From Nocardia otitidiscaviarum NBRC 14405 (GTDB lineage: Bacteria; Actinomycetota; Actinomycetes; Mycobacteriales; Mycobacteriaceae): a stretch of 64,000 nt of DNA. The notes under the pieces are model-generated. The model was not told where the DNA came from and did not search any database. It worked only from the letters and a program-made list of their open reading frames with translations. The number at the start of each line of letters is the position of its first letter. The stretch's first letter is position 1. Below, piece by piece: positions 3,001-59,645 of this stretch. The stretch spans positions 1-64,000 of the forward strand of contig NZ_BAGD01000113.1 in the NCBI RefSeq assembly GCF_000308635.1. The letters run 5' to 3'. Made by a program: the position numbers and the translations under genes.

Positions 3001-6000
3001 GCCCTCGCGGGCAATGGTTTCCGCCACGTACAGCGGATCCCGGTGGCCGTCGTGGGTGCCGACCACCAACTTCGACCCGGTGCGCAGCGGCATGAAGTAG
3101 CCCCACAGCGACACGTCGAAGGTGGTGGCGGTCTTCTGGAAGTAGACGTCGTCCGGCGTCAGCGGGTAGGCGGCCAGCATCCAGGTGGTCTGGTTGTGGA
3201 TGGCGGCATGCGAGACCGCGACGCCCTTGGGCCGACCGGTCGAGCCGGAGGTGAAGATGACGTACGCCGGATGCTCGGGCCGCACCGGCCGCAGCAGCTC
3301 ACCCGAAGTCACGGGCGCGGCGGCGAATTCGTCCAGCGGCGCGGTGTCGAGCCGGATGACCGGCGTGCCCTCGGGCACCGGCACCTCATCGGCGCTGGTC
3401 GTCAGCACCGCCACCGGCTGCGCGGTGTCGAGAATGTGGGCGATGCGCTCGGCCGGATGGTCCGGATCCAGCGGCACGTACGCGCCACCGGCGGTGATGA
3501 TGGCGTACATGCCCACCACGAGATCCAGCGACCGCCGAATGGCAAGGCCCACCAGCGATTCCGCCCCCACGCCCTCGGCGATGAGCAGCCGGGCGAGCCG
3601 ATTGACCCGCTCGTCGAATTCGCGGTAGGTGAGTTCCGCGCCCTCGTACACCACCGCGACGGCGTCCGGATGCCGCCGCACCGCGCGGCGATACTCGTCC
3701 AGCAGCAGTTCGGGGGCGATGGGATGCGCGGTGTCGTTCCAGTGGTGCAGGATTCGTTCCCGCTCGGCGGCGTCGAGCAGGTCGATCTCACCGAGGGCGG
3801 TGCTCGGATCGTCGGTGACGGCGGTGAGCACGCGCACCAGCCGTTGCGCGAACTCCGCCACCGTGACCTCGTCGAACAGGTCGGTGGCGTAGGTGAACAC
3901 GGCGGTCATACCGTCGGCCGCACCGTCGCGCTCGCGCGGGATCACCGACAGCTGGAGGTCGAATTTCGCTACCGCACCGTCGAATTCGACGGCCTCGGCG
4001 GTGAGGCCGGGCAACTCCATGCGCGGGGTCTCGATATTGTGGAAGAACAGCGCCACCTGGAACAGCGGGTGGTGTGCCTGCGACCGCACCGGGTCCAGGA
4101 TCTCCACCAGCCGCTCGAACGGCAACTCGGCATGCGAGAACGCCGCCAGATCCGTTTCTTTCGCGTTCTCCAGCAGGTCCGCGAACGACACGCCAGCGTC
4201 CACGCGGGTGCGCAGCACCAGCGTATTGACGAACATACCGATGAGATCGTCGAGTTCACGCTCGCCGCGGCCCGCGACCGGCGTGCCGATCACGATGTCG
4301 TCGGTGCCCGAGAGCCGCGCCAGCAGCGCCGCGAGCGCGCCGTGCACGACCATGAACGGCGATGCGCCGCTGTCGTGGGCGAGTTCGGTGAGACGTGCGT
4401 GCAGCGCGGCGTCGATCTCGAAGGTGTACACCGCGCCCCGCCCGGACGCGATGGACGGCCGCGGCCGGTCGGCCGGCAGGTCGAGACGGTCCGGGATGCC
4501 CGCCAGGGTCTCGCGCCAGTAGGCGATCTGGTTGGCGGCCAGCGAGCCGGGCTCGTGTTCGTCGCCCAGCAGCGCCCGCTGCCACAGGGTGTAGTCGGCA
4601 TACTGCACCGCCAGCGGCTCCCAGGCGGGAGCCTCGCCACCGCGACGAGCGAAGAAGGCCGCCAGCAGATCTCGCATGAACGGGCCCACCGACGCGCCGT
4701 CGGCGGCGATGTGGTGCACCACCACCGCGATCACATAATCGTCGCGCCCGATTTCGGCGAGTTCGATGCGCAGCGGCACCTCGGCGGCCACGTCGAAGCC
4801 GCGCAGCGCCAGCCCGGTGAGCCAGTCCGCGACTCGCTCCGGCTCCACCACCTGCGGCTCCAGCTCCGGAATCGCCTGCTCAGCGGGCAGCACCACCTGA
4901 TAGCCGGTGCCGTCCACGGCCGGGTACACCGTCCGCAGCGTCTCGTGCCGCCGCACCAGGTCACCGATGGCCGCGCGCAGCGCCGCGATATCGAGCGCAC
5001 CGGTGAGCCGGATGGCGAACGGGATGTTGTTGGCCGCCGAGGCGGTGTCGAACTGGTTGAGGAACCACATGCGCTGCTGGGCCAGCGACAGCGGAATGCG
5101 GTCGGGGCGCGGCTGCGGCGTGAGCGCGGGTCGTCCGCCCGCGCCGACGAGCGGTTCCAACTGGGCGGCCAGTCCGGCGACCGTCGACGCGGTGAAGATC
5201 ATGCGGGCCGGGACGCGCGCGGAGATCTCCGCGCCCAGCCGGGCGGCGACCCGGGTGGCGATGAGCGAATTGCCGCCGAGTTCGAAGAAGTCGTCGTCCG
5301 CGCCGATGGGATCGCCCGGGTCGAGCAGGTCGGCGAAGACGCCCGCGACCAGTTCCTCCAGGCGACCGGCCGGGGCGCGGAATTCCTTGGTGCGCAACTG
5401 CGGTGCGGGCAGGGCGCGGCGGTCCAGCTTGCCGACCGGGGTCAGTGGAATCGTATCCAGCACCATGATGGTGGTGGGCACCATATGCGCGGGCAGGCTC
5501 TGCTCGGCGTAGGCGGTCAGCTCGTCCACATCCACCGACGCGCCCGGGGCGGCGTGGACGTAGGCGGCGAGAATGGTCGCCCCGGAATCGAGCTGGTGAC
5601 CGACGGTGACGGCGAAGTCCACGCTGTCGTGCGAGCCCAGCACCGCGTCGATCTCGCCCAGTTCGATGCGGAAGCCGCGCACCTTCACCTGGAAGTCGTT
5701 GCGCCCCAGGTACTCCACATCGCCGGAGGGAGTGCGCCGCACCAGGTCGCCGGTACGGTAGAGGCGGGATCCGCCCGGATCGAGCGGATTGGCCACGAAA
5801 CGTGCCGCCGTCAGGCTCGGCCGCTCGTGGTAGCCGCGCGCCACCTGCGCACCGGTGATGTACAGCTCCCCCACCACGCCGTCGACCACCGGCACCAGCC
5901 GCTCGTCGAGCACGTATTCGGTGATGCCGCGCACCGGACCGCCGATGGTGACCAGTTCCCCCGGCACCAGCGGCGCGCTGATATTGGTCATGATGGTGGT

Positions 6001-52361: not shown

Positions 52362-53228
52362 ATGGTGGACAGCAGAATGCAGCGGGTGGCCGGATCGGTG
52401 GCCGCGGCCGCGGTGGCGGCCGGTTTCGCGGTGGCGGCGATGCCGGGGACGGCGGCGGCCGATCCGGGGACGATCACCTGGACCGACGGGAACAGCAAGT
52501 TCACCCGGACGGTGTCGGACACCAATCCGGTCGTCGGTGACATCGTCACCGTCACAACGAAATTCGAGCGGACCGGGATCCCGGTGGAGTACATCTACTC
52601 GATCAAGGATCTGCACCCCGCCTGCCTGACCCCGGTGCCGGGCTCGGCACGCATGGGCGGTGACCAGGTCCAGCTCGACACCTCGTCCTCGGATTGGGTT
52701 CGTGCCGAGTTCGGGATCACCAAATACCCGGTGTACCCGAATATCCAGCCGAAGTCGCAGACCTTCGAGGTGCAGTACACGGTGGGCGTCAACTGCGCCC
52801 GCGACACCCCGCTGCCGACCTCCATGCACTACGGCGGCTCCCTCGGCGAGGGCATCTACCAGGGCAAGGGTCCGGCCATCACGGTGTCCGGCGATGCCGT
52901 GTCGAGCACGGTGCTCACCGATGTGACCGGCGCGCAGGTCGGCAAGGCCGTGACCCTGGAGGCGAGCGTGTCGCCCGCGGCCGCGGGCGGCACCATCCAA
53001 TTCAAGGCGGGCGACCAGGTTCTCGGTGACATCCCCGTCGCCGCGACCGGCAAAGCCTCGATCGTGTGGACCCCGGGCGCGCCGGGCGACTACACCATCG
53101 GCGCGACCTTCTCCGGCCGCAGCGGCGTCGCCGGATCGTCGACCACCAAGGTGGTCACCGTGGCCGACCAGCCGACCGATCCCGACCCGGGTCCCGGCAA
53201 GCCGAGCACGGGCTCCTTCGGATCCTGA
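52362..53228 (+). CDS. Secreted Ig-like-domain protein ending in TGSFGS
   Basis: 288 aa from the ATG at 52362 (GGGAG 6 nt upstream; GTG at 52350 is possible). Signal peptide about 1-34 (VAAAAVAAGFAVAAMPGTAA). First domain to about 170, then a bacterial Ig-like repeat (Big_3-type) from about 175 (GAQVGKAVTLEASVSPAAAG, ATGKASIVWTPGAPGDYTIG). A Pro/Asp/Gly linker and the end PSTGSFGS follow. Probably cell-surface or secreted; ligand unknown. Confidence 0.82.
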   Translation: MVDSRMQRVAGSVAAAAVAAGFAVAAMPGTAAADPGTITWTDGNSKFTRTVSDTNPVVGDIVTVTTKFERTGIPVEYIYSIKDLHPACLTPVPGSARMGGDQVQLDTSSSDWVRAEFGITKYPVYPNIQPKSQTFEVQYTVGVNCARDTPLPTSMHYGGSLGEGIYQGKGPAITVSGDAVSSTVLTDVTGAQVGKAVTLEASVSPAAAGGTIQFKAGDQVLGDIPVAATGKASIVWTPGAPGDYTIGATFSGRSGVAGSSTTKVVTVADQPTDPDPGPGKPSTGSFGS

Positions 53229-53316
53229 TCGGCATCCCGGCCGCGCGGACCGAACGATCAGCGCGGCGCGCGACAATGCGCGCACTCACCATCCGGTCAC
53301 CGGGAGGCCGTCGAAT

Positions 53317-53958
53317 TCACGCGGCGGTGGCGTGGCGAACGATGATGTTGCCGTAGGTGTTTCGCGCGTAGACCTGAACGACTTCAGCGCTTCGCGCGTC
53401 GCCGACCGGGTCCATGAGGTTGCGGACCGTGCCGACCGGCGCGGTGGTTTCCAGGCGCACGGTGCTGCTCGGGTGGACGCCGACCTCCAGTTCGCCCATG
53501 GCGGTTTCCAGCCGCAGCACGCCGTGGCTCGCCACGCCGATGCGGATATCGCCCTGGGCGGCCTTGGCGGTCACGGAGCCGCGGATATGGTCCAGGACGA
53601 TGTCCCCGGCGGAGATGTCGAGGTCGCAGTCGCCGAGTTCGCCGGTGGTCAGGATGTGGCCGACGGCGGCGGTGGCCGACAGGCGGGAGCCGGTGGGGAC
53701 CTCGATGGTCACCTCGATGGTGGGGTTGCCGCCGAACGGGGTGTAGGTGCGCCAGTCCTTCGGGGCGCGCACGGTCAGGGTGTCGCCGGAGAGGTCGACG
53801 GTGGTGTGCGCGGCGGCGCGCACGTCACCCTTCTTGGCCGGGTCGGCCGGGCGCACCTCGACCGCGGTGTCGGTGCGGTCGGAGGCGATCACGGTGACCG
53901 AGGCAGACAGCACCTCGGCGGCGACGGTGATCGGGTTCGGGGTCTGGAAAGTGGGCAT
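53317..53958 (-). CDS. DUF4097-family beta-helix protein
   Basis: 213 aa from the ATG at 53958 (GGAG upstream). Repeated short beta-strand units (VGHILTTGELGDCDLDISAG, DIVLDHIRGSVTAKAAQGDI) form the DUF4097/DUF4098 adhesin-like right-handed helix. No signal peptide. In other actinomycetes such genes accompany DrrAB-type exporters and SARP regulators. Its promoter carries the same 11-bp-spaced repeats as the exporter promoter. Confidence 0.85.
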   Translation of the reverse strand: MPTFQTPNPITVAAEVLSASVTVIASDRTDTAVEVRPADPAKKGDVRAAAHTTVDLSGDTLTVRAPKDWRTYTPFGGNPTIEVTIEVPTGSRLSATAAVGHILTTGELGDCDLDISAGDIVLDHIRGSVTAKAAQGDIRIGVASHGVLRLETAMGELEVGVHPSSTVRLETTAPVGTVRNLMDPVGDARSAEVVQVYARNTYGNIIVRHATAA

Positions 53959-54041
53959 GACGGGCTCCTCGAGCGTAGGTCGGTGCACCGGGAGGCGTTC
54001 CGTGAGCCGGAGCCGCACTCGCCGTGCTGTTCACGGGGATT

Positions 54042-54089
54042 ACGGTCGCCGGGTCCGCTGACAGGGAGCTGACAGCCCGCTGATACCGC
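54042..54089 (-). promoter_or_regulatory. Three TGTCAG-type direct repeats at 11-bp period before the DUF4097 gene
   Basis: On the minus strand: TATCAG, TGTCAG, TGTCAG, each start exactly 11 bp apart (units at 54079, 54068 and 54057 on the plus strand), then 10 bp and the -10-like GACCGT (54047-54042). Exact 11-bp tandem repeats just before a -10 box are the classical SARP binding layout, and a SARP gene starts 94 bp away. Confidence 0.7.
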
Positions 54090-54182
54090 CGAAGCCACCG
54101 CGTCATGCCTGGTCACCGGCGTTCGTGAGGCCGCCGAAAGGTCGCCGGACGAAACACCGACCGATGGCGGCAGAATGTCCGG

Positions 54183-57100
54183 GTGCAGATCAGAGTGCTG
54201 GGACCGCTGGAGATCCGGACGGATGAGGGTGGTGCGATCGAGGTGTCCGGGGCGCGGTTGCGGGCGTTGTTGATCGCGCTCGCGCTGGAACCCGGACGCG
54301 CGGTGCCGAAAGCACAACTGGTCGACTGGATCTGGGGTGAGCAGCCGCCGGCGGACGCGGCGAACGCGTTGCAGGCGCTGGTCTCCCGGCTGCGCCGGGC
54401 GCTGCCGGACGGTGCGCTCGACGTGCAGGCTGGCGGGTACCGGCTGGCGGTGCCGCCGCACGCCGTCGACGCCCATCGGTTCGAGCGGCTGCTCGAACAG
54501 GCTCGTGGCGGCACGGATCCGCAGCGGGCCCCGCTGCTGCGCGAGGCGCTGGAGCTGTGGCGCGGTGCGCCCATGCGCGATGTCGACATCGACAGCGGAG
54601 CGGCCGACGCCGTGGTCACCCGCTTCGAAGGACTGCATCTCGCCGCCCTGGAGGACCGCTACGAGGCGGAGATCCGCCTGGGCACCGGCGCGGAACTGGT
54701 CGCCGAGCTGACCGAGGTGGTCGCCCGGCATCCGCTGCGGGAACGGCTGGCCGCCGCGCTGATGCGGGCCCTGGCCGCCGCCGGTCGCGGCGCGGAGGCG
54801 CTGACCGTGTACCAGCGGACCCGCGAGGCGCTCGCCGACGAGCTGGGCGCGGATCCCTCGCCGGAACTCTCGGCGCTGCACGTCGCCCTGTTGCGCGGCG
54901 AGGTGGGTGCGCAGGACGAGGAACGCCGGACCAATCTGCGGGTCGAACTGACCAGCTTCGTCGGCAAGGACACCGAAATCGCCGTGGTCCGTGAACTTCT
55001 CGCGGGATATCGGCTCACCACCCTGACCGGCCCCGGCGGCTCCGGCAAGACCCGGCTCGCGCAGGAGACCGCGCGCACCATGCTCGACGATCTGCCGGAC
55101 GGGGCCTGGCTGGTGGAGTTGGCGGCGCTCGGCCCCTCCGGCGATGTGGCGCAGGCGGCGTTGGCCGCACTCGGGCTGCGGGACACGCTGCTCGGCGGCG
55201 CATCCCACGCCGAACCGATGGAACGCCTGATCACCGCCCTCCGCGACCGGGAAACACTGTTGATCCTGGACAACTGTGAGCATGTGATCGAGGCGGCGGC
55301 ACGATTCGCGCACCGGATCCTCGGCGAATGTCCGGGCCTGCGGATACTTGCCACCAGCCGGGAACCGCTCGGCATCACCGGTGAGGCGATCCGGCGGGTG
55401 GAACCGCTGCTCTCCCCCGCCCCCGACGCCGACCCCGCACAGATCGAATCCGCGCCCGCCGTCAAGCTGCTGCGCGATCGCGCCGCCGCCGTACGCCAGG
55501 ACATGACAGCGGATCCGCCGACCCTGGCGACCATGGCCCGCGTCTGCCGCGCACTGGACGGCATCCCGCTGGCGATCGAGCTGGCGGCGGCCCGGCTGCG
55601 CACCATGTCCCTGGATCAGCTCGCCGACCGCCTCGATGACCGGTTCCGACTGTTGACCGGCGGCAGCCGCACCGCCATTCCGCAGCACCGGACCCTGCGC
55701 GCGGTGGTGGACTGGAGTTGGGAGCTGCTCACCGACAGCGAACGGGTCGTGCTGCATCGGCTCGCAGTCTTCGCCGACGGCGCGAGTTCCGAAGCGGCCG
55801 AACAGGTGTGCGCGAGCGACGAGACGAACCCGGCGGTCGAGGCGTGGGAGGTGCCGGACCTGCTCACCGCGCTGGTCGAGAAGTCGCTGCTGCGCAGCAC
55901 CGACGACGATGCCGCTCGCGCGAACGGGCCGCGCTATCGGATGCTCGACACGATCAAGCGGTACGCCCGCGATCGGCTCGACGAATCCGGCGACGCCGAA
56001 TCCGCGCGGCGGGCGCACCTCGCGTACTGCACCGACCTGGCCGCGACCGCGGAACCACATCTGCGCCGTGCCGAACAACGGGAGTGGCTCACCGTGCTCG
56101 CACTCGAGCACGACAATATCGCCGCCGCCATGCGCGCCGCGCTGGCCGTCGACGACGGCCCCGGGGCGCTGCGGCTCGCGGCCGCAGCGGGCTGGTACTG
56201 GTGGCTCGGCGGGCACAAGGCCGAGGGCACCGAGTTCGTGACAGCCGCCGCCGACGCCCGCGGCGAGGTGGACGACGAGACCCGCGCCACCGTGTACGGG
56301 CTGGCCGTCCACTTCCTGAGTTCGGGGCGCAGTGGCGAACAGCAGCTGGCGGAGTGGATTCGCAAGTCGCACGAATACGCTCACGACCGCCGCGACGGCC
56401 ATCCGACGCTGCGGTTCGCCGGTGTGCTGGAGCGGCTGCTGCACGGACCGCAGGAGTATCTGCCCGCGTTCGAATCGCTGCTCTCCGACGAGGATCCGTG
56501 GGTGCGGGCGCTGGCTCGGCTACAGCTGGGCAAGATGCGGGTCGTCCTCGGTCAGGACGGTCCGGAGACCGGTGACCATCTGCGGACCGCGCTGACCGAG
56601 TTCCGGGAGATCGGAGAGCGGTGGGGTATCTCGTTCGCGCTCACCGAGCTGGCCGACCATTTGGCCACCGGCGGCGAATTCGCCGCCGCCGGTGAGCTTT
56701 TCGACCAGGCGGCCACGGTGGTGGCCGAAGTCGGCGCGTACGAGGACACGGTACGGATGCGGGCGCGGCAGGCGCAGCTGTACTGGCTGCTGGGCGATGC
56801 GGACGCGAGCGGGGCCGCGCTGGCCGAGGCGCGGCGGCGGGCGGAACAGGCCGCGTGGCCCATCGCACGCGCCGAATTGGCTTTGGCCGAAGCGGAACTC
56901 GCGCGGTGGACCGGCGACACCGAGCGGGCGCACCGGCAGATCGACGTCGCGACGACCATGCTGGGCGTGGAAGCGGAACAGCCGCACACCAGCGCGGTCA
57001 TCCACGAGCTGCGCGGCTATCTGGCGACGGATCTCGATACGGCCCGCACCCACCACGACGCGGCCTACCGGGCGGCCACCGCGTCCGGACACGTCCCGCT

Positions 57101-57344
57101 GCTGGCTCGCGTGCTCGTCGGCATCGCGGATCTGGCTCTGCGGTCGGGTGCGGACGAGCGGGCGGTGCGGCTGCTCGCGGCGAGCACGACCGTGCGCGGA
57201 CGCTCCGATCGCTCGCTGCCCGACGCGGCCCGCATCGAGGCGACCGCACGGCAGCGCCTCGGTGACGCGAGGTTCACCGAGGCGCTGCGGGAGGGTGAGC
57301 GGACCGACTGGCAGGACCTGGTCGCCGCTACGCTCGCTTCGTGA
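54183..57344 (+). CDS. SARP/BTAD-NB-ARC-TPR transcriptional regulator (AfsR-like)
   Basis: 1,053 aa, GTG start; CAGAAT lies 6 nt before it, so it is probably leaderless. OmpR-type winged HTH about 1-95 (QIRVLGPLEI, LVDWIWGEQPPADAANALQA), BTAD 100-240, NB-ARC ATPase with Walker A GPGGSGKT near 281 and Walker B LLILDNCEH near 359, then a long TPR-like helical region. STAND regulators of this type bind ATP and an inducer before activating transcription. The likely targets are the flanking DUF4097 gene and exporter. It converges on, and overlaps by 17 bp, the exporter permease gene. Confidence 0.93.
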   Translation: MQIRVLGPLEIRTDEGGAIEVSGARLRALLIALALEPGRAVPKAQLVDWIWGEQPPADAANALQALVSRLRRALPDGALDVQAGGYRLAVPPHAVDAHRFERLLEQARGGTDPQRAPLLREALELWRGAPMRDVDIDSGAADAVVTRFEGLHLAALEDRYEAEIRLGTGAELVAELTEVVARHPLRERLAAALMRALAAAGRGAEALTVYQRTREALADELGADPSPELSALHVALLRGEVGAQDEERRTNLRVELTSFVGKDTEIAVVRELLAGYRLTTLTGPGGSGKTRLAQETARTMLDDLPDGAWLVELAALGPSGDVAQAALAALGLRDTLLGGASHAEPMERLITALRDRETLLILDNCEHVIEAAARFAHRILGECPGLRILATSREPLGITGEAIRRVEPLLSPAPDADPAQIESAPAVKLLRDRAAAVRQDMTADPPTLATMARVCRALDGIPLAIELAAARLRTMSLDQLADRLDDRFRLLTGGSRTAIPQHRTLRAVVDWSWELLTDSERVVLHRLAVFADGASSEAAEQVCASDETNPAVEAWEVPDLLTALVEKSLLRSTDDDAARANGPRYRMLDTIKRYARDRLDESGDAESARRAHLAYCTDLAATAEPHLRRAEQREWLTVLALEHDNIAAAMRAALAVDDGPGALRLAAAAGWYWWLGGHKAEGTEFVTAAADARGEVDDETRATVYGLAVHFLSSGRSGEQQLAEWIRKSHEYAHDRRDGHPTLRFAGVLERLLHGPQEYLPAFESLLSDEDPWVRALARLQLGKMRVVLGQDGPETGDHLRTALTEFREIGERWGISFALTELADHLATGGEFAAAGELFDQAATVVAEVGAYEDTVRMRARQAQLYWLLGDADASGAALAEARRRAEQAAWPIARAELALAEAELARWTGDTERAHRQIDVATTMLGVEAEQPHTSAVIHELRGYLATDLDTARTHHDAAYRAATASGHVPLLARVLVGIADLALRSGADERAVRLLAASTTVRGRSDRSLPDAARIEATARQRLGDARFTEALREGERTDWQDLVAATLAS

Positions 57345-58095
57345 AAGTGGCGCGCGACCACAGGAATCCGACGATGGCGAACCCGGCGCACCAGGCCAGC
57401 GCCGCGGCGGTGTCACCGCCGGAGGGGTTGCCGGAGAGGAATCCGCGCAGCGCCTCGATGATCGGCGTGAAGGGCTGGTACTCGGCGAACTGCCGCACCC
57501 CCTGACCCATCTGCTCGGCGGGCACGATGGCGGTGCTCAGGAAGGGCAGCATGATCAGCGGCACCACGCTCATGCCCGCCGACTCCGGGGTTTTGGCGGC
57601 CATACCCAGCGCGACCGTCAGCCAGGACGCCGCGAACGAGGTCGCCAGCATGACGCCGATCGCACCGAGCCAGTCGGTCGCGGTGGCGGCCGGGCGGAAG
57701 CCCAGCGCGAAGGCCACGCCGATGACCGCCGCGATGGCGACCAGATTGATGACGATGGTCGCCACCACATGCCCGATCAGGATGGCGCTGCGGGAGACCG
57801 ACATGACCTTGAACCGGTTGATGATGCCTTTGGCCATATCGGAGCTCACCGACACCGCGGTGCCCGACAGCCCATAGCTGATGGCCAGCAGGATCATGCC
57901 CGGCGTGGCGTAGTCGATGTAGTCCTCGCCGACGTCGAACGCGCCACCGAACACGTACACGAAGATCAGCATCATCACCACCGGCATCAACGCCGCATTG
58001 AAGATGGTGACCGGATTGCGGGCGATGTGCTTGAAGTTGCGGCCCAGCATGGTCGACGAATCGGCCAGCGATGCGACCGGGGACAGGGTGCTCAT
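57328..58095 (-). CDS. ABC-2 type permease (DrrB-like)
   Basis: 255 aa, six hydrophobic segments (PVTIFNAALMPVVMMLIFVY at the first). Landmarks of the daunorubicin-exporter permease family: ATPGMILLAISYGLSGTAVS near 65 and YQPFTPIIEALRGFLSG near 205. The start overlaps the ATPase stop (ATGA). Expected to export a hydrophobic compound or lipid with the adjacent ATPase. Confidence 0.92.
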   Translation of the reverse strand: MSTLSPVASLADSSTMLGRNFKHIARNPVTIFNAALMPVVMMLIFVYVFGGAFDVGEDYIDYATPGMILLAISYGLSGTAVSVSSDMAKGIINRFKVMSVSRSAILIGHVVATIVINLVAIAAVIGVAFALGFRPAATATDWLGAIGVMLATSFAASWLTVALGMAAKTPESAGMSVVPLIMLPFLSTAIVPAEQMGQGVRQFAEYQPFTPIIEALRGFLSGNPSGGDTAAALAWCAGFAIVGFLWSRATFTKRA

Positions 58096-59036
58096 GATGC
58101 GACAGCCTCCGTGGTGGCGCGCCCGGTGAGGGCGAAGAAAACGTCATCGAGATCGGGGGTGTGAATGGAGACCTCGGCGGCCTCGAGCGAGTACGCGGCG
58201 AGCCGGTCCAGCAGGTCGCGCAGGAAGGCGCTGCCGCCGCTGCCCTCCACCCGCAGGGCGAGAGCGTCGTCGTCACGGGTAGCGGTGGGCAGGGCGCGTT
58301 CGGCCGCCGCCACCTCGGCGGCGGTGGTGAAGCGCAGCCGGATGTGGCTGCCGGGGATACGGCGCTTGAGTTCCTCGGCGGTGCCCTCGGCGACGATGCG
58401 CCCGGCGTCCAGCACCGCGATCCGATCGGCCAGCTGATCGGCTTCCTCGAGGTACTGGGTGGTGAGGAAGATGGTCACGCCGTCGGTCGTGAGTTCGCGG
58501 ACGATCTCCCACATGGTGCGGCGGCTGCGTGGGTCCAGCCCCGTGGTGGGCTCGTCCAGGAAGACGATGTCCGGCTTGGTCACCAGCGTCATGGCCAGAT
58601 CCAGTTTGCGTCGCATGCCGCCGGAGTAGGTGGCGGCGGGCTTGCGCGCCGCCGCCGTCAGCTCGAAGCGTTCCAGCAGTGCGTCGATCACCTGCTGCCG
58701 CCGCGCGCCCCGCATCCGGTGCAGGTCCGCCATCAGCCGCAGGTTCTCCTCACCGGTGAGCAGATCGTCCACGGCGGCGAACTGCCCGGTCACCCCGATG
58801 ACCCGGCGCACCGCCTCGGGCTCGGTCACCAGATCGTGCCCGGCGATGCGCACCGTGCCGCCATCCGCCGTCTGCAGCGTGGTCAGCACGTTCACCGTCG
58901 TCGTCTTGCCCGCCCCGTTCGGGCCGAGCAGCGAGAAGATCGTGCCCGCACCGATATTCAGGTCGATTCCGTCGAGGATCGTCTTGTCCCCGTATGCCTT
59001 CCGCAGCCCGGAGGCCACGATTGCCGCGTCGTTCAT
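58092..59036 (-). CDS. ABC transporter ATP-binding protein (DrrA-like)
   Basis: 314 aa from the ATG at 59036; a frame to 59066 would start inside the repeat region. Walker A GPNGAGKTTT near 39, signature YSGGMRRKLDLA near 141, Walker B IVFLDEPTTGLDPRSR near 158, H-loop TTQYLEEADQ near 193. The C-terminal 80 residues are the DrrA accessory domain (ALRVEGSGGSAFLRDLLDRL). It would energise the DrrB-like permease. The -10-like GATCGT lies 7 nt before the ATG, giving a leaderless message. Confidence 0.93.
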   Translation of the reverse strand: MNDAAIVASGLRKAYGDKTILDGIDLNIGAGTIFSLLGPNGAGKTTTVNVLTTLQTADGGTVRIAGHDLVTEPEAVRRVIGVTGQFAAVDDLLTGEENLRLMADLHRMRGARRQQVIDALLERFELTAAARKPAATYSGGMRRKLDLAMTLVTKPDIVFLDEPTTGLDPRSRRTMWEIVRELTTDGVTIFLTTQYLEEADQLADRIAVLDAGRIVAEGTAEELKRRIPGSHIRLRFTTAAEVAAAERALPTATRDDDALALRVEGSGGSAFLRDLLDRLAAYSLEAAEVSIHTPDLDDVFFALTGRATTEAVAS

Positions 59037-59043
59037 GGGTAGA

Positions 59044-59088
59044 ACGATCACGGCAGCGCCTGACACCGACCTGACACCGGGCTGACAC
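59044..59088 (-). promoter_or_regulatory. Three TGTCAG direct repeats at 11-bp period before the exporter operon
   Basis: On the minus strand GGTGTCAG occurs three times, exactly 11 bp apart (CTGACAC at 59060, 59071 and 59082 on the plus strand), followed by 10 bp and GATCGT (59049-59044), then 7 bp and the ATG. The same repeat, period and distance to a GAYCGT box occur before the DUF4097 gene. Confidence 0.75.
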
Positions 59089-59126
59089 CCCCGCCGACAC
59101 GGCGTACGGCGCGGTTGACCGAGGTG

Positions 59127-59645
59127 TCAACGACCTCGGTCTCTTGTTGTCTCCTCACGAACCGGCGTTCGAGCGGCGGTCACGAGCCGCTGCAAGACAA
59201 ACTCCAGCGATGCCATGCCCGCGGGGTCGTACTGATCGAGCGCGTCGATCGGCCTCTGGTCCGCTCTGCGTCGCGCCAGTTCGAACTCCTTGACCACTCG
59301 GTGCCATCGCTCATATGCGGCTTGCTTGGATGACCCGCATGCTATGCCGACCTGTTCCCAGGTCGCTCCGACCAAACGAGCAGCGGCTACCGCAGCACCC
59401 AGGTCCATATGTGCCAGTCGCAGGATCTGTAGCTTGGTCAACTCCAAGCGAAGGCGGTCCTCGGATCGATCCGACTTTTCGGTTCGATCACCATCTCGGT
59501 CACGGGGAAGCCCGAGCAGCCTCCTGGCCAATTCGTCGCATTTGTCGTTCACTGCCAAACTGAGATCAGTCGCAGCCTGCGCCACCAGCGTCGGATCCGA
59601 AATAGATAACAACCCGTCCGGTACTTTTTTTCGCCCTCGGGACAT
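59127..59645 (-). CDS. Small helix-turn-helix protein of unknown family
   Basis: 172 aa from the ATG at 59645; the frame continues to 59843 but through AT-rich non-coding-like DNA. A basic N-terminus (SRGRKK), an acidic/charged middle (DRDGDRTEKSDRSEDRL) and an HTH near 105-130 (LVGATWEQVGIACGSSKQAA, YERWHRVV). This HTH type is seen in small orphan DNA-binding proteins. Lower GC around its start hints at transfer. No partner gene is recognised. Confidence 0.65.
   Translation of the reverse strand: MSRGRKKVPDGLLSISDPTLVAQAATDLSLAVNDKCDELARRLLGLPRDRDGDRTEKSDRSEDRLRLELTKLQILRLAHMDLGAAVAAARLVGATWEQVGIACGSSKQAAYERWHRVVKEFELARRRADQRPIDALDQYDPAGMASLEFVLQRLVTAARTPVREETTRDRGR

Follow-up and report, generated by a model that had tools for sequence, protein, structure and literature searches.

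A putative TGTCAG-type operator of a large SARP regulator in Nocardia, with drrA-like codons ahead of other genes

The SARP locus and its two repeat-bearing promoters

The window analyzed in this study, i.e., the whole stretch of 64,000 nucleotides from Nocardia otitidiscaviarum NBRC 14405, harbors the gene for a SARP regulator, flanked by the genes of a DrrA-type exporter on one side and by a gene for a DUF4097 protein on the other. Both the exporter operon and the DUF4097 gene are preceded by triads of TGTCAG-type direct repeats with an 11-bp period. Judged from sequence comparisons, the triad ahead of drrA is probably an exporter-gene switch read by the neighboring SARP.

The regulator gene (54183..57344, plus strand; GTG start, 1053 aa) encodes a winged helix, a BTAD domain, a STAND/NB-ARC-like ATPase part and weak TPR repeats, and its product is presumed to be the operator-binding protein. 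Pfam comparison recovered the OmpR-type winged helix (Trans_reg_C, 34.8 bits; cut-off 26.2) and the BTAD domain (120.1 bits; cut-off 22.1). The ATPase part, which contains the P-loop GPGGSGKT, matched AAA_22 (30.6 bits; cut-off 27) and scored just below the threshold for NB-ARC (22.0 vs. 23.5 bits), and the C-terminal match to TPR_12 was weak (21.3 bits; cut-off 30.1). With 174.6 bits against a cut-off of 1430, the protein falls outside the NCBIfam equivalog model of AfsR. By these domain matches, it is a large SARP with a STAND-like ATPase and not an AfsR equivalog; its nearest solved relatives are the AfsR structures. The sections of PMC10936776 drawn on here present R92 in the recognition helix of AfsR, as well as T88, as specific contacts, the latter being described as highly conserved in SARPs. 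In the Nocardia regulator, R92 is kept as R69 and T88 is replaced by alanine (A65). Its helix QALVSRLRR is unique among the 14 BTAD matches of its own genome.

The exporter ATPase gene drrA (58092..59036, minus strand; 314 aa) was assigned to the TIGR01188 subfamily of NCBIfam (328.7 bits; cut-off 312.45), and the drrB-like permease gene (57328..58095, minus strand) matched the general Pfam model ABC2_membrane with 86.1 bits. The permease remained below both DrrB-specific NCBIfam cut-offs (TIGR00025, 73.7 vs. 146.9 bits; TIGR01247, 44.1 vs. 223.05 bits). The DUF4097 (Toastrack) protein (213 aa) is encoded at 53317..53958 on the minus strand (PF13349, 33.6 bits; cut-off 22.9). A preceding sequence-only reading of the window had named a SARP regulator, a DrrA-type exporter and a DUF4097 protein, and Pfam and NCBIfam agree with these identities, the permease being of ABC-2 type. 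Its mention of an adhesin was not borne out, since the adhesin-like Pfam match, DUF2807, falls below its cut-off.

Upstream of drrA, operator 2 (59060..59087, minus strand) consists of three perfect TGTCAG repeats and is followed, after exactly 10 bp, by the -10 box GATCGT (59044..59049, minus strand), which lies 7 nt ahead of the drrA ATG, so that a leaderless transcript is predicted. Operator 1, upstream of the DUF4097 gene (54058..54085, minus strand), comprises one TATCAG and two TGTCAG repeats with the same period and, again after exactly 10 bp, the -10 box GACCGT (54042..54047, minus strand). The triads, their common orientation and the exact spacing to a GAYCGT box had been proposed correctly. 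Their being identical applies to operator 2, whereas the first repeat of operator 1 carries one mismatch. Two triads in the window compare with 0.02 expected, and two were obtained in none of 100 shuffles. A chance origin of the triads is ruled out by expected counts, shuffles and reversed-pattern controls, which stood at zero.

Occurrence and targets of the sites

The genome scan for the triad-N10 pattern that had been suggested was carried out and yielded seven triad matches at up to three mismatches in the genome of origin, five of them at no more than one, and none for the reversed pattern. All five are followed by N10 and GA[CT]NGT, a layout absent from the two sites with three mismatches. 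Besides the two window sites, these precede genes for an Rce1-like (CPBP-type) protease, a 134-aa protein and an alpha/beta-hydrolase, the latter two families being assigned through scanned relatives. The regulon therefore extends past the window locus. With five sites in this genome and further target families across the genus, the term "mini-regulon" was too narrow; the original observation is real and was understated.

Across the genus, 118 Nocardia genomes, including the one of origin, were scanned for triad-N10-GACNGT with up to three mismatches. A site was detected in 103 of them and the reversed pattern in none. Orthologues of the SARP were defined as best matches below E 1e-190, which gave 98 genomes by search plus G093, where the gene is cut by a contig end; as this example illustrates, orthologues may escape the first-look step of these searches. 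All 99 orthologue-bearing genomes carry a site vs. 4 of the 19 others (Fisher p = 1e-15, with kinship ignored and the sorting of genomes counted by hand from listings). No site was found in the remaining 15 genomes, which were covered by the site and orthologue searches only. Among the four site-bearing genomes without an orthologue, two have a different SARP (~35% identical) adjoining the site, one retains a truncated drrA remnant behind the operator (L335, ~5041-5223) and one has an orphan site before a beta-lactamase-like gene. The ~35%-identical SARP in G110 and G021 (L341/L342) lies by a similar TGTCAG triad with a CACGGT -10 box, upstream of a gene that by eye is methyltransferase-like, which suggests a second operator class. 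In 40 Nocardia loci that were fetched, drrA was present in 27 and preceded by the operator in 27/27, and a divergent-side operator was found in 32/40. Absence of the triads from orthologous loci had been named beforehand as grounds for abandoning the idea, and all 27 fetched Nocardia loci with drrA retained them.

Another regulator, be it a SARP paralogue or a factor acting globally, might read the triads, the adjoining SARP being a bystander. The CACGGT-type arrangement in G110 and G021 is compatible with this explanation, as is a paralogue in the genome of origin (L113) with the related helix QSAVSRLRR. The sites, however, track the orthologue, although at least 6 of the 19 genomes without it hold a paralogue at E <= 1e-100, and the operator remains beside the SARP gene across families. 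A bystander role is thus considered unlikely.

Outside Nocardia, 28 distant loci from other families (SARP identity 59-65%) were examined, and the operator was found before 19 of 21 drrA genes, sometimes with a fourth repeat. Together with 11 loci of a more-distant clade, 79 loci (40 + 28 + 11) contained 19 further sites elsewhere, with none in the reversed sequences. An exact-pattern scan of named genomes returned 50 stretches, which were sorted by hand into 21 from Nocardia, 10 other loci and 19 unrelated simple repeats. The 10 other loci (nine actinobacterial records and one Solirubrobacterales assembly) have a SARP, DrrA-like, hydrolase or P450 gene adjoining, with mixed strength of evidence. 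Eight of the 19 simple-repeat stretches come from a single Saprospiraceae assembly (L132, L134, L139, L141, L143, L148, L165, L175), where numerous TGTCAGACA-type arrays occur together with inverted copies and seem to have no connection with the operator. TGCCAG triads with the same N10-GACCGT layout in G203, G256 and G414 are a possible operator variant, and TGTCGG triads with an 11-bp period in another actinobacterial genus (G463, G376) possibly represent the operator of a paralogous SARP.

For the identification of targets, 236 sites were collected, of which 35 without a coding-like open reading frame (many of them non-Nocardia simple repeats) were dropped and 201 clustered. Reading frames were chosen according to codon usage, with a score for which the four window genes served as the training set, and families were determined by Pfam for one representative per cluster. 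Because part of the sampling centered on the SARP locus, class proportions are not genome-wide. The clusters comprised drrA (51), the 134-aa protein (29), DUF4097 (25), alpha/beta-hydrolase (24), P450 (23; some of these loci have ferredoxin first), PF00144 beta-lactamase-family proteins (14, including fusions to the 134-aa domain), GtrA (13), ferredoxin (5), MMPL (2), RibD_C (2) and others. This mix of genes suggests a response to a toxic compound or to envelope stress. The sequence-only reading had considered that the system possibly responds to a compound expelled by the exporter itself.

The 134-aa family, represented by L147:4811-5212 (minus strand), L003:1602-2003 (plus strand), L276, L296, L298 and L305 (fusions included), is a frequent target and also occurs as an N-terminal fusion to PF00144 serine beta-lactamase-type hydrolases. 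It has no Pfam match. Its predicted structure is all-helical (mean pLDDT 86) and gave no Foldseek match at E <= 0.001 and a best VIA Z of 6.4, which is of little meaning for a helical bundle. A sequence search against solved structures returned five weak matches (best E 0.0034), four of them to designed helical proteins.

Spacing of the repeats and drrA-like codons ahead of other genes

According to the parts of PMC10936776 and PMC10972967 used here, the afs box in the AfsR complex extends from -40 to -19 and comprises two repeats of 11 bp, and the repeat reads CGTT(T/C)ATCGNN, respectively. When the TCA of TGTCAG is aligned with the TCA of this repeat, a register chosen by the analysts, TGTCAG occupies repeat positions 2-7 and the last core runs from -28 to -23, leaving ten bases before a -10 box at -12, which matches the N10 spacing of the triads. 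In 164 triads picked without a -10 requirement, GANNGT occurred at an offset of exactly 10 in 142 cases, at 12 in three and at no other offset from 2 to 20, although many loci had originally been fetched by a pattern including the -10 box, so that this comparison is not fully independent. The targets accordingly carry direct 11-bp repeats at the expected -35 region of predicted promoters, as is characteristic of SARPs. The SARP-like layout with a core other than that of AfsR, as put forward in the sequence-only reading, is therefore supported by sequence evidence for an operator in 11-bp register before both drrAB and the DUF4097 gene.

The SARP might, alternatively, repress the triad promoters, given that negative regulation is reported in PMC10972967 for Atr32, a medium SARP. 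The register, however, equals that of the AfsR activator box, and the repeats occupy the place of the -35 element, which makes repression improbable.

The drrA start codon lies 6-7 nt past the -10 box in 27/27 Nocardia loci and in 15/19 distant ones, the other four having 6 nt by eye. This gap offers no room for a ribosome-binding site; hence, drrA is predicted to be leaderless.

On reading the leaders, the first codons of drrA (M/V-NSTAIAASGLRK) were found directly past the -10 box of some non-homologous genes. Leaders were scored with a matrix built from 30 drrA 5' ends, 181,400 windows free of drrA loci serving as the null. Of 147 non-drrA Nocardia sites, 38 scored above the 99.9% null and 23 above the null maximum, one of the latter (L122) being a truncated drrA. 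The fraction above the 99.9% null was high for ferredoxin (5/5) and GtrA (11/13); the values for DUF4097 (6/24), P450 (5/21), the beta-lactamase classes (4/14), hydrolase (3/23), MMPL (1/2) and unlabelled targets (3/6) were followed by zero for the 134-aa protein (0/29) and the remaining small classes (0/10). Many of the other sites, among them those of the 134-aa class and most of the hydrolase and P450 leaders, carry no drrA trace and may be older or of independent origin.

Translated leaders were compared locally with DrrA among only six proteins, so that the following E-values are not database-wide. Three GtrA leaders match DrrA over ~30 residues (E 2.5e-12 for L095, 5.8e-11 for L176 and 2.4e-9), and the N-terminus at the ferredoxin locus L069 matches DrrA with E 1e-13. 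In two ferredoxin loci, drrA residues 1-23 or 4-26 run into the C-terminal end of a P450 (E 0.003 and 4e-6), followed by a stop and then by ferredoxin. Several other leaders (e.g., L074, L296 and L124) match over too short a length for significance. All 22 distinct GtrA cases examined have the cassette in frame with GtrA, although leader length ranges from 26 to 70 residues; since some of these cases come from related species, they do not represent 22 independent events. In L370 and L371, gtrA and drrA diverge from two back-to-back operators, an arrangement suggesting that the drrA promoter was duplicated locally in inverted orientation. A DNA search with one cassette found matches in 87 of the 118 genomes, with up to six in each when drrA itself and operator-only matches are counted. 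Twenty fetched matches lead to GtrA (nine), hydrolase (five), DUF4097 (three), drrA (two) and the 134-aa gene (one).

The window itself contains an apparent decayed copy of the first ~13 drrA codons (GTGAACAGCACGGCGAGTGCGGCTCC...; 53995..54034, minus strand), located 7 nt past the -10 box of the DUF4097 promoter; its alignment to drrA requires a gap. None of 5000 base shuffles of this leader (54034-53995) reached its score against the cassette consensus or the drrA of the window. Of its first 24 nt, 19 match the cassette consensus, compared with a best value of 17 over 115,320 window positions outside 53001-59300. This indicates that the two window promoters are alike at least partly by descent, a point missed in the sequence-only reading.

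The MNSTA-type starts could also have arisen by convergence, having been selected for leaderless translation rather than copied from drrA. Alpha/beta-hydrolase starts are indeed rich in N, S and T (MTKNSTSSTDSK), with 20/23 of the hydrolase sites under the 99.9% null for drrA codons. The leaders of GtrA (SGLRKIYGDNMIHVGIDLDIGAG, E 2.5e-12) and ferredoxin (SGLRKAYRDKTILDG, E 1e-13), in contrast, are ABC-ATPase-like over ~23-30 residues in the six-protein comparison, and convergence is accordingly regarded as quite improbable, somewhat more so than a repressor or bystander role. Least probable is that the promoters resemble each other only through a recent segmental duplication, with repeats devoid of any regulatory role: the DUF4097 promoter does carry the apparent decayed drrA 5' end, but the repeat period, N10 and the -10 box are retained before non-homologous genes in distant families while copied codons decay.

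Proposed growth of the regulon and comparison with known systems

Taken together, it is likely that the triads are the operator of the adjoining large SARP, acting on a predicted leaderless drrA, and that the regulon has grown in part by copying of the drrA operator and first codons. If the analogy with AfsR holds, adjacent SARP protomers would occupy the 11-bp repeats, substituting for a -35 box, and would bring RNA polymerase to the weak GAYNGT -10 box. Transcription would begin at or beside the drrA start codon and yield a leaderless drrAB mRNA, with the ATPase/TPR part possibly gating activation upon chemical or envelope stress. The putative targets include the exporter, hydrolases, a P450-ferredoxin pair, GtrA, DUF4097 and the 134-aa helical protein. 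The drrA operator and first codons would have been copied before other genes, some of which keep the codons as their likely start and others a decayed trace. A direction of copying from drrA outward is inferred because the leader sequence has ABC-ATPase character.

Several observations weigh against this interpretation. The replacement of T88 by A65 means that specificity contacts differ from those of AfsR, and the ~35%-identical SARP adjoining a similar triad implies that the motif alone cannot identify the regulator. Copying accounts for only part of the regulon, since 109 of the 147 non-drrA sites lie below the 99.9% null. Two of the 21 distant drrA genes miss the operator threshold, the middle repeat is often degenerate in non-Nocardia operators, and the divergent-side operator occurs at equal threshold in 32/40 Nocardia loci but only in 1/28 distant ones. 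In the more-distant clade (11 loci), the operator was found before 5/9 drrA genes, there ~46-50 nt ahead of the start, so that drrA is not leaderless in this clade, and on the divergent side in 0/11. The class-wide link is also looser, with the pattern in 31/44 SARP-bearing genomes and in 18/350 others (counts by hand), several of the 18 matches being evident simple repeats.

More narrowly, a self-contained start cassette, composed of the SARP operator, the -10 box, the leaderless start and the first ~5 to 31 drrA codons, appears somewhat more probably than otherwise to have been copied repeatedly before unrelated Nocardia genes. From the leader sequences, GtrA seems to keep the captured codons in frame, ferredoxin seems to stand behind a drrA-P450 chimeric scar, and DUF4097 seems to preserve a decayed trace. 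Since leaderless mRNAs are translated without a separate ribosome site, a promoter moving with its first codons transfers the control of transcription and the initiation of translation in one step. If this is true, leaderless promoters would be unusually easy to spread and natural seeds for regulon growth, and counting could then show whether their spread exceeds that of other promoters.

SARPs have been described chiefly as regulators that switch antibiotic biosynthesis, and the genus Nocardia includes opportunistic pathogens. The regulon apparently governed by the SARP described here is dispersed and made up of efflux and modifying enzymes. To our knowledge, the entry of genes into regulons is usually inferred only by comparing binding sites; the drrA-derived leaders, if correctly interpreted, would be direct sequence traces of genes joining a regulon. 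In the open-access library searched, no paper was found combining SARP, direct repeats, 11 bp and TGTCAG, or TGTCAG with AfsR, and none pairing DUF4097 with BTAD; nothing fitting was found by title on leaderless promoter capture or leaderless SARP promoters.

AfsR and its afs box in S. coelicolor (8HVR, 8JKE, 8K60) resemble the Nocardia system in the SARP domain with an ATPase part, in the 11-bp direct repeats over the -35 region, in the equal distance to the -10 box once TCA is aligned, and in the kept R92. AfsR differs in using two repeats with the core CGTTYATC, whereas the Nocardia operator has three or more with the core TGTCAG, in possessing T88, which is alanine in the Nocardia SARP, and in its target, afsS, as opposed to the apparent exporter and enzyme targets of the latter, which also scores far under the AfsR equivalog cut-off. 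Three repeats over the -35 region are likewise described for the operators of DnrI and ActII-ORF4 in the part of PMC10972967 cited here. These control antibiotic biosynthesis clusters, while the Nocardia sites precede dispersed single genes and the drrAB operon. Promoter capture by duplication is a general concept in which a gene gains regulation from a copied promoter, and the putative Nocardia cassette corresponds to it in this respect. It differs in that a start codon and as many as ~30 codons of a gene predicted to be leaderless would be copied along with the promoter, and in that several gene families within one regulon are preceded by such a unit.

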